DNA from: Neisseria arctica
Lineage (GTDB): Bacteria; Pseudomonadota; Gammaproteobacteria; Burkholderiales; Neisseriaceae
DNA length: 64,000 nt
Reading direction: 5' to 3'
Assembly: GCF_022870905.1 (NCBI RefSeq)
Contig: NZ_CP091510.1
Span: forward strand, 1,302,001 to 1,366,000
Every line of letters begins with the position of its first letter. The stretch's first letter is position 1. Below the pieces are notes generated by a model. It was not told where the DNA came from and did not search any database. It saw nothing but the letters and a program-made list of their open reading frames with translations. Positions 24,434 through 64,000 of the stretch are shown here, piece after piece. A program made the translations under genes and the position numbers.

Positions 24434-26482
24434 TTAAAATAGGAAATAGCGTTGTGCTAATGGTAACTTGCCGGCTGGCTCACAAGTTACCAATTCACCC
24501 TCAACGCGCACTTCATAACGTTCCGGGTCAACCGTAATTTCCGGAGTGGCATTATTATGAATCAAGTCTTTTTTTCCAATATCTCGACAACCATGTACTG
24601 GTAATGTTTGTTTATTCAAACCATACTGTGTACGGATATCAGCCTCAACAGCAGCTTGAGAAACAAACAATACTGCCGTTTGCTCTACCGCTTTGCCCTG
24701 TGCGCCAAACATAGGGCGGTAAACTACAGGTTGCGGTGTGGGAATACTGGCATTAGGGTCACCCATTCGCGCATAGCTGATGAAGCCATTTTTAATAATC
24801 ATTTCAGGTTTCACCCCGAAAAATGCTGGCTTCCATAATACGATATCTGCCATTTTGCCTACCTCAATCGAACCAACATATTGGCTAATACCATGAGCAA
24901 TAGCCGGATTGATGGTATATTTTGCGATATAGCGTTTAATACGGAAATTATCACTACCATCAACATCCTCCGGTAATACACCGCGCTGTTGTTTCATTTT
25001 ATCGGCGGTTTGCCAGGTGCGAATAATCACCTCAGCCACTCTCCCCATTGCTTGTGAATCGGAGCTCATAATGGAAAACACACCCATATCATGCAAAATA
25101 TCTTCGGCAGCAATCGTTTCTGGTCGTATACGAGAATCAGCAAAGGCGATATCTTCTGGAATATGCTTATCAAGATGATGACAAACCATCAACATATCGA
25201 GATGCTCATCAATTGTATTGATTGTGAACGGGCGCGTTGGATTAGTAGAAGCTGGCAAAATATTGGGATACATAGCAGCTTTGATAATATCGGGTGCATG
25301 TCCCCCTCCTGCACCTTCAGTATGGAATGTATGCATGACACGACCATCAATGGCCTTTATCGTATCTTCCAAAAAACCACCCTCATTGAGTGTATCGGTA
25401 TGAATAGCAACTTGAATATCCATCTCATCCGCCACCTTCAGGCTGGCATCGATAACTGCAGCAGTCGCCCCCCAGTCTTCATGAATCTTCAAACCCAATG
25501 CACCTGCACGGATTTGTTCGCGTAAAGGCTCTGTAGAAGCGCAGTTGCCTTTACCGAAAAAACCCAAATTTACCGGATAACCATCAGCAGCCTGCAACAT
25601 ACGTTGCAAGTTCCAAGCCCCAGAAGTAACGGTAGTTGCATTGGTACCGTCAGCAGGACCGGTGCCACCACCAATCATGGTAGTGATACCACTTTCAATC
25701 GCATGATAAATTTGTTGTGGGCAAATATTATGAATATGTGTATCTATACCACCGGCAGTAGCAATCAGGTGAGCACCATTATGCACTTCGGTAGCCGCAC
25801 CGATAATCATATTTGGGGTAACCCCATCCATTGTATCGGGATTACCGGCTTGGCCTATCCCAACAATTTTACCGTCACGAATACCAATATCGGCTTTAAT
25901 AATGCCGCTATGATCAATAATAAGTACATTGGTAATGGCAAAGTCGAGTACATTATTATTAGTGCGTGGCTCAGTAGCAGATTGCGCCATTCCGTCCCGT
26001 ACCGATTTACCGCCACCAAATTTACACTCTTCGCCATAAGTCAGTAAATCACGCTCAACCGTAGCAAACAGATTGGTATCGCCTAAACGCACCTTATCAC
26101 CAACAGTTGGGCCATAAGTAGTCAAATATTGAATCCTTGGGATAGTCAGCGTGGCACCGCTAATCGGATTATCTACTCTTACTGTTTTATTTATGAGATT
26201 TTGAAAACCATGAATATTTTGCCGCCCCCCGAATGCAACAAGCTCAACAGTTTTACGCTCGCCCGGTTCAAAACGTATAGCGTTACCACTAGGAATATTC
26301 AGACGGAAACCTTTAGCTTGAACTCGGTCAAATTTAAGTGCTGAATTGGTTTCATAAAAATGAAAATGCGAGCCTACCTGTATCGGGCGATCACCGATAT
26401 TCGCTACTTCTAAAATACGGGTTTCACGATTCACATTGGCAGCAATATCAGTTGAAGCCGGAAAATACTCTCCAGGATTCAT
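24434..26482 (-). CDS. ureBC: Fused urease beta-alpha subunit (UreB-UreC)
   Basis: One 682-residue frame contains the whole urease beta subunit (residues 1 to about 100, [10 protein letters not shown] to FQNLINKT), a short linker of about 11 residues, and the whole alpha subunit from [18 protein letters not shown] onward. Alpha-subunit catalytic features are intact: nickel ligands THIH; the carbamylated Lys in GLKIHEDWG; His in [11 protein letters not shown] and [12 protein letters not shown]; flap VCHHLD with the mobile Cys-His; Asp in SSDSQAMGR. The start at 26482 follows AAAGGAAG. Bacterial ureases normally have separate beta and alpha genes; Helicobacter fuses gamma to beta, and plants fuse all three. 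A single-base shift near 26150-26185 would create a stop in either other frame, but then no ATG, GTG or TTG start would exist for alpha, so a true fusion is favoured. It follows ureA by about 100 bases. Confidence 0.9.
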
Positions 26483-62589: not shown

Positions 62590-62620
62590 AGGCCGTCTGA
62601 AAACCGTTTTCAGACGGCCT
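62590..62620 (+). terminator. DUS-pair terminator after the acyltransferase gene
   Basis: Inverted AGGCCGTCTGAAAA pair with a short CCG loop, followed by TTATTTTTA. Confidence 0.92.
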
Positions 62621-62668
62621 TATTTTTAATATTTACTAAAAAGTAATTAAATCAAGCCAATTTAAAAT

Positions 62669-62697
62669 TTGCCTTTTGGTAAACTCAAGCATACAAT
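62669..62697 (+). promoter_or_regulatory. Promoter of the HTH-ribB gene
   Basis: TTGCCT (62669-62674) and TACAAT (62692-62697) are 17 bases apart, a good sigma-70 match. A transcript starting near 62704 would have a leader of only about 25 bases before the ATG at 62729, which has AGGAA just upstream. No room for a riboswitch. Confidence 0.65.
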
Positions 62698-62728
62698 CTT
62701 CTGCAACGTTAATCCCCACAGGAACCGT

Positions 62729-64000
62729 ATGGACACCACCACCCTCAGACGGCACAACCTGCGCCAATGGATACAGCAACAATACGGCGGCCAGCAATCG
62801 GCTTTTGCCGCCGCCGCCCAAATCAACCAAGGCGAGTTATCCTCATTGTTAAAAAACAAATCATTCGGCGAAAAAAAAGCCCGTAAAATCGAACAAGCCG
62901 TTGGTATGCCTAATATGTGGCTCGACCAAAACCACGGTTTACATACTTCATCTGTCTCTCCACTCCCCACATCAGAAACGAACTACAATATGAGCGAAAT
63001 TTCCCCCATCAGCGATATTCTGGCCGACATCCGCGCCGGAAAAATGGTGATTATTACCGATGCCGAAGACCGTGAAAACGAAGGCGACCTGGTTATGGCC
63101 GCCCAATTCGTTACCCCGCAGGCAATCAACTTTATGATCAAACACGCACGCGGCTTGGTTTGCCTACCGATGAACGACGAACTTGTCGACCGCCTGCACC
63201 TGCCGCAGATGACTCAAAAAAACGGTGCTCAATACGGTACAAATTTCACCGTTTCCATTGAAGCCGCCGAAGGCATTTCCACCGGGATTTCCGCTGCCGA
63301 CCGCGCCCATACTATCCTGACTGCCGTTTCTCCCACTGTTAAAGCCGAAGATATCGTACAGCCCGGCCATATCTTTCCCCTTCGCGCGCAAAAAGGCGGT
63401 GTATTGGTGCGCGCAGGCCATACCGAGGCAGCGGTAGACCTTGCCCAAATGAGCGGTTTGATTCCCGCCGGCGTGATTTGCGAAATTCTGAATGACGACG
63501 GCACCATGGCGCGTATGCCCGAACTGATTCAATTCGCCAAAGAACACGACATTAAAATCGGTACGATTGCCGATCTCATCGAATATCGCAGCCGCAACGA
63601 AAGCCTGCTCGAGGAAATGGGCGACACACTCGTCCAAACCCCTTGGGGGTCGTTCCAACAGCATGTATATGTAGACAAACTGTCGGGCGAAACCCATCTT
63701 GCACTAGTAAAAGGCAATCCCGAAACAGCCGCAGAAACACTGGTTCGCGTTCACGAACCATTCAGTGTGATGGATTTTCTGCAAGCCGACCCCAACCATA
63801 GCTGGCCGTTGCCCGAAGCACTTACCCACATTCAAAACGCTGAAGCGGGTGTGGTTATCCTGTTGCACCGTACCGAAGACGGCAGTGCCCTACTTGAACG
63901 GACCCTGCCAAAAAACGCATTCCAAGTCAAAAAGTGGGACAGAAAAACCTACGGTATCGGCGCACAAATTCTGGCCGGGCTGAATGTAAAAAAAATGCGT
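62729..64000 (+). CDS. ribB: HTH-fused 3,4-dihydroxy-2-butanone-4-phosphate synthase (RibB), partial at right end
   Basis: One open frame from 62729 to the window end. Residues 1-65 are a lambda-repressor-type helix-turn-helix ([57 protein letters not shown]). After a short Ser/Pro/Thr linker, residue 88 is the Met (62990) that would start ordinary Rib[57 protein letters not shown], all active-site segments present. The C-terminal part (from about residue 310) looks like GTP cyclohydrolase II but has [11 protein letters not shown] where the zinc cysteines should be, so it is the inactive RibX type. A promoter and AGGAA site support starting at 62729. Internal start at 62990 has no clear site. 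The gene continues beyond the window. Confidence 0.85.

Follow-up and report, generated by a model that had tools for sequence, protein, structure and literature searches.

Here we report a putative self-repressing riboflavin enzyme from Neisseria arctica, encoded at the end of a 64,000-nucleotide stretch of DNA (hereafter the window), in which a helix-turn-helix (HTH) of the phage CI/XRE type is read in frame with RibBX. Sequence comparison makes it very probable that the HTH, most likely together with the promoter and its operators, was taken from a prophage CI/S24-type repressor whose S24 domain RibBX has replaced, and that HTH-RibBX most likely switches down its own gene. An initial annotation of this DNA had described the fusion and proposed that the enzyme may bind its own promoter; the phage origin of the HTH and, most likely, of the operators, moved together, was not foreseen there.

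The fused frame and its conservation

An ATG at position 62729 of the forward strand, on which all features of the locus lie, opens a single frame that is stop-free to the end of the window; the ribBX gene continues beyond it, and the product encoded in the genome is 450 amino acids long. Residues 1-66 (62729..62926) form the N-terminal HTH, in which NQGELSSLL falls where the recognition helix is expected, and residues 67-90 (62927..62998) form a linker that varies in length and sequence. The internal ATG at 62990..62992, the ordinary RibB start, is residue 88, and the initial annotation was exact in placing 87 codons before it in the same frame with no stop. The predicted product is a DNA-binding domain and an enzyme in one polypeptide, read from one open frame.

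The RibB (3,4-dihydroxy-2-butanone-4-phosphate synthase) domain at 63002..63592 is intact, with a Pfam match to PF00926 at E 2e-86, a TIGR00506 score of 251 bits against a cut-off of 177, and matches to PDB 6mnz and 1g57. The degenerate GTP cyclohydrolase II-like domain that follows (RibX, 63617..64000, running past the window end) matches PF00925 at E 5e-27 in Pfam and scores 31 bits with TIGR00505 against a cut-off of 206. RibX contains no cysteine, the separate RibA of the same genome (G000:C1:815130) contains four, and the enzyme body is therefore identified as RibBX.

The HTH lies below the Pfam cut-off (HTH_3, E 0.042 for the piece searched alone). It matches PHROG families of phage transcriptional repressors (best 3.6e-9), PDB 8c3l, ‘Phage repressor protein CI’ (E 7e-4, when the window protein was the sole query), and PDB 5d50, ‘Repressor’, at E 6e-11 when the query was profile A1, which was built with phage HTHs and other fused HTHs included; the PHROG and PDB matches bear out the lambda-repressor-type domain named in the initial annotation. 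A search with residues 1-95 returned 298 homologues at E<=1e-3, with the RibB Pfam domain present in all 120 among the matches listed. The C-terminal S24 domain is absent from the window protein; Pfam gives RibB and GTP cyclohydrolase II in that position, and we consequently regard the protein as derived from the CI/S24 repressor family rather than as a member of it.

The family scan covered 83 genomes, 79 of them with RibBX. An HTH of the window's type was found in 39 of these 79 (37 in frame, two broken), another HTH in four and none in 36; within the window's genus (46 genomes) there were 34 in-frame fusions, two broken ones, eight genomes without HTH and two without a RibBX match. Records bearing the fusion are labelled Neisseria wadsworthii, elongata, sicca, polysaccharea, bergeri, viridiae and iguanae, among others, and the fusion also occurs in records labelled Neisseria gonorrhoeae DSM 9188 and Bergeriella denitrificans. 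In the same scan genomes G036, G040 and G069 gave RibA-like matches only, with no RibBX, and G073 gave no match.

Median dN/dS over the 37 in-frame loci (Nei-Gojobori, pairs with a synonymous difference between 0.02 and 0.7) was 0.187 for the HTH, a near-neutral 1.06 for the linker (residues 67-89, 513 pairs), 0.078 for RibB and 0.130 for RibX. By these ratios the HTH is a conserved domain and the linker evolves freely. Stop codons or frameshifts in relatives had been named in the initial annotation as evidence that would count against the fusion; the frame is open in 37 of the 39 HTH loci, and both breaks fall in the linker. At the two broken loci (L058 in G021 and L059 in G050) the HTH and ribBX are each open in different frames, through mutation or sequencing error, and the HTH and the upstream motif described below are still kept. 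L059 shares its contig with the Neisseria weixii locus L095.

Palindromes before ribB and before viral-contig repressors

Between the upstream gene and ribB lies a terminator-like inverted repeat (62590..62620), followed by a sigma-70-like promoter, TTGCCT-17-TACAAT (62669-62697), which matches at 9 of 12 positions where shuffles yield 0.3 such promoters per region. Its -35 hexamer occupies 62669..62674 and its -10 hexamer, which recurs in the alignment of HTH loci, 62692..62697. An AGGAA ribosome-binding site of the fused frame follows at 62720..62724 (duplex of -4.3 kcal/mol in the window's own genome), so that both the 17-base-spaced promoter and the AGGAA site of the initial annotation are located.

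Alignment of the regions upstream of HTH loci revealed one 14-bp palindrome in two inverted copies. In the window these are a putative operator O1 (TTACTAAAAAGTAA, 62633..62646), a TTAC-N6-GTAA palindrome, and a putative operator O2 (TTGCCTTTTGGTAA, 62669..62682), which nearly repeats O1 in inverted form and overlies the -35 box; O1 starts 36 bp upstream of the start of O2. The pattern TTRC-N6-GYAA occurs upstream in 37 of the 39 HTH loci, all except L016 and L044, with 60 sites where shuffles predict 0.74; in the 20 of these ribB loci that have a pair of sites, the two lie 35-42 bp apart. It was found at none of the 36 HTH-less ribB loci (23 and 13 in two scans) and at none of four loci with HTH_B, a different phage-type HTH discussed below.

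Because this pattern was derived from the same HTH loci in which it was counted, two further checks were made, one with a motif-free half-site scan and one with an independent set of viral contigs. The unbiased scan, which ran every 4-base half-site with gaps of 0-12 against 20 shuffles, ranked TTAC-N6-GTAA first in the HTH ribB loci (27/39, shuffle maximum 7), whereas in 23 HTH-less loci the top count of 5 equalled the shuffle maximum and nothing rose above shuffles.

For the second check we used 50 IMG/VR loci with a homologous HTH, of which 46 were left after dropping three with duplicate upstream DNA and L160. The latter, an 11-kb contig filed as viral (IMGVR_UViG_2879694896_000001), encodes an HTH-RibB frame of 443 amino acids and is probably bacterial DNA in the viral collection. 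The loose form of the motif stands upstream of 44 of the 46 repressor genes (L134 and L181 are without it) and the strict form upstream of 43; restricting the set to 35 representatives with less than 85 percent HTH identity leaves 33 and 32, and shuffle maxima in the viral-contig motif scans were 4 and 6. The unbiased scan again placed TTAC-N6-GTAA first (43/46, shuffle maximum 4). Two strict copies are present in 34 of these loci, 39-41 bp apart in all but one of them (33/34). Pfam recognised Peptidase_S24 in 9 of 13 such repressors (2/3 and 7/10 in two runs), the 13 being 12 of the 46 plus L075. Among relatives from whole genomes, L075 has one site and L193 two sites 39 bp apart. The motif is absent at 13 more distant standalone frames of repressor length (L205-L211, L197-L200, L076 and L077), which ties it to this HTH subfamily and not to repressors at large.

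Within its own genome the exact sequence TTACYAAAAAGTAA of O1 occurs once, at ribB. Allowing up to two mismatches from the O1 consensus gave 70 sites, fewer than the 138 of the backwards control, and we therefore claim no target beyond ribB; among the frames near the six one-mismatch sites in this genome, no riboflavin gene was recognised by eye. Across the 46 genomes of the genus the exact consensus occurs 13 times, 12 of them directly upstream of ribB (backwards control, 2). Across all 83 family genomes there are 19 exact sites, 12 at ribB and seven elsewhere with neighbours assessed by eye, against 23 for the backwards control, so that what is special is the position at ribB and not the number of sites. 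On the RibBX tree, fusion and motif changed together in four of four independent pairs under most random pairings and in three of four under a few, giving p 0.125, with too few independent pairs to reach significance.

Proposed autorepression and rival readings

We propose that a prophage CI/S24-type repressor gene donated its DNA-binding domain to ribBX, that a promoter with two operators was most likely captured along with it, and that RibBX replaced the repressor's C-terminal S24 domain; the occurrence of the same sites before ribB fusions and before viral-contig repressors is what makes HTH and operators look captured together. RibB is dimeric in known enzymes, and the fused protein could thus present two HTHs to a palindrome. 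Once enough protein had been made, dimers would bind O2 and O1, perhaps cooperatively, and would block RNA polymerase, as the positions of the sites suggest, O2 lying on the -35 box and O1 starting 36 bp further upstream. Transcription would then settle at a set enzyme level, in a homeostatic loop in which enzyme is made, binds and shuts its promoter. Sequence comparison gives good support to the initial annotation's suggestion that the enzyme may bind its own promoter, since the palindromes accompany the fusion, are missing without it and also stand before the viral-contig repressors.

The initial annotation had further proposed that the HTH replaces an FMN riboswitch. As it had noted, none is seen: Rfam gave no match to the FMN riboswitch (RF00050) in the window, and Infernal with stricter filters gave none in the 46 genomes of the genus. 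Rfam did match the 5' ureB small RNA family elsewhere in the window, at 25702-25986 on the forward strand (57.6 bits against a cut-off of 40). Riboswitch matches number 0 of 43 in genomes with an HTH and 7 of 36 in HTH-less genomes, five of the seven above the cut-off. This distribution fits a replacement, but replacement itself is not established, as most HTH-less genomes are also without the riboswitch.

That riboswitch and HTH were never found together (0/43) also fits a sensor of the BirA or RbkR kind, in which the same autorepressor has its DNA binding switched by a ligand, so that riboflavin demand sets ribB transcription; candidate ligands are ribulose-5-phosphate, the RibB product, and FMN or riboflavin in RibX. 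RibX, the candidate sensor, is conserved (dN/dS 0.13) although cysteine-free, and according to PMC10012899 the X domain in Shewanella regulates the activity of RibB by a mechanism left unexplained. However, RibX is kept without the HTH as well, the RibBX match extending to residue 424 in 35 of the 36 HTH-less genomes (the remaining match ends early), which argues that RibX is not there for ligand-sensing repression. The ligand is hypothetical and constant negative feedback by enzyme amount would explain the sequences equally well, and we regard ligand control as possible, if somewhat doubtful.

It is improbable, in our estimation, that the palindromes serve mainly against phages, with HTH-RibBX an immunity factor and autoregulation a side effect. 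O1 and O2 do match the sites found before 44 of the 46 repressor genes that carry this HTH on viral contigs, and among the matches listed the sole standalone frame more than 50 percent identical to the window HTH sits in an HTH-less genome, G006. Against this, the absence of such prophages rests on that one positive genome among the matches listed, and it is at the ribB promoter itself that the sites are retained, none being present at loci that lack the HTH.

The internal ATG was also considered. All 37 in-frame fusions preserve a start codon at the RibB start despite a freely evolving linker, and this retention suggests that a second, HTH-less product may also be made from it. An internal start with a Shine-Dalgarno sequence is not supported for the window's HTH type, as there is no enrichment at the internal ATG (median -1.1 against a background of -1.7 kcal/mol; +0.1 in the window); at the four HTH_B loci the internal-start Shine-Dalgarno is strong (-5.4 kcal/mol). 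That translation in practice begins at 62990, with an ordinary RibBX as the enzyme and an HTH that is vestigial or made as a peptide of its own, is very improbable: the retained ATG, the two loci where HTH and ribBX differ in frame and the weakness of the ribosome-binding site ahead of the HTH start in many relatives (median of -0.7 kcal/mol for 37 loci) speak for it, but the HTH is under constraint (dN/dS 0.19) with its frame open in 37 of 39 loci, the internal ATG is without Shine-Dalgarno enrichment, and a relic would not be expected to retain its sites.

Parallel fusions and known systems

A single clade of fused RibBX was rejected (AU p 0.0002 on 65 rows, L074 being omitted), which calls for losses or transfer; resolution in the HTH tree is poor, and that tree is compatible with a single capture. 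At the HTH-less loci L052, L054, L055, L056 and L073 the ribE match ends 49-233 bp before ribB, and at L001 and L022 an acyltransferase gene lies between ribE and ribB.

In one sister genus, four of seven genomes (G064, G059, G058 and G061; loci L046-L049 / L201-L204) carry HTH_B fused to RibBX. HTH_B is 31 percent like the window HTH, and its likeness to L216, a frame of 253 aa that stands alone in the same genus, is 73 percent, so that it looks like a separate capture; no relative of it was found in the viral scan. Its promoters carry TTGT-N6-ACAA palindromes (TTGTTATATAACAA and TTGTTATAATACAA, the latter covering a TATAAT), while the palindrome of L216 has the half TGTTAT and differs in spacing from the HTH_B sites. 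The loci number only four and are near-alike, three further palindromes equal TTGT-N6-ACAA at 4/4, and the HTH_B operator is accordingly weaker than that of the window HTH.

A related HTH also occurs on another enzyme. The order scan matched 30 of 399 genomes, three of which carry it in frame with DAHP synthase (L194, L195 and L196 in the Leeia-type genomes G095, G142 and G185, L195 and L196 on the reverse strand; PF00793 at E 9e-96 for L194), and the fusion is present in 3/3 genomes examined of that family. In 3/3 genomes the promoter carries a pair of TTACC-N5-GGTAA palindromes with a spacing of 55-56 bp. Residues 1-75 gave no match at E<=1e-3 in the protein database, and a full-length search returned three proteins of 455-459 amino acids, one of them the query's own sequence. 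The class scan with profile A1 matched 32 of 369 genomes; besides the own ribB, the frames listed are 91-265 amino acids long, with six further frames of 362-395. That a CI head with paired operators has been captured repeatedly by biosynthetic enzymes (twice by RibBX within one family, and by DAHP synthase in Leeia), making metabolite-sensing self-repressors, is a conjecture to which we give slightly less than an even chance.

The name RibBX denotes a RibB joined to a RibA-like domain that has no catalytic function (Brutinel et al. 2013, as cited in PMC10012899), and the window protein agrees in having RibB with a cysteine-free GTP cyclohydrolase II-like domain and a separate RibA in the genome. 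In contrast, RibBX is described without a DNA-binding domain in the passages of PMC10012899 concerned with it, and the window protein adds a phage-type HTH and its sites. Phage and prophage CI-like S24 repressors (for example L075 and L140; PDB 5d50) share a homologous HTH and, by comparison of sequences only, TTAC-N6-GTAA sites, mostly paired, upstream of their own genes; unlike them, the window protein has no S24 domain, having RibBX in its place, and is the product of a chromosomal biosynthetic gene.

RbkR is an archaeal HTH-riboflavin kinase. It is listed as both gene regulator and enzyme in PMC8305020. Like the window protein it is a riboflavin-pathway enzyme with an N-terminal HTH, although it is another enzyme in another domain of life, likened here by description and not by sequence. 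Group II BirA biotin ligases are N-terminal HTH enzymes that repress biotin genes according to biotin supply. The window protein resembles BirA in outline, as an N-terminal HTH enzyme that would also act as a repressor, and differs in that its only exact site in its own genome is at ribB. An open literature search of titles and abstract openings found no report of an HTH-RibB fusion among the matches listed.

The proposed autorepression is a candidate answer to the question of how riboflavin synthesis may be regulated in Neisseria in the absence of an FMN riboswitch. It points to a phage repressor whose reader and site were domesticated together, as one functional unit, in a biosynthetic enzyme, and the parallel fusions suggest a general route by which enzymes may gain transcriptional feedback. 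If true, this would be a modular route from a lysogeny switch to feedback control of vitamin or amino-acid synthesis.
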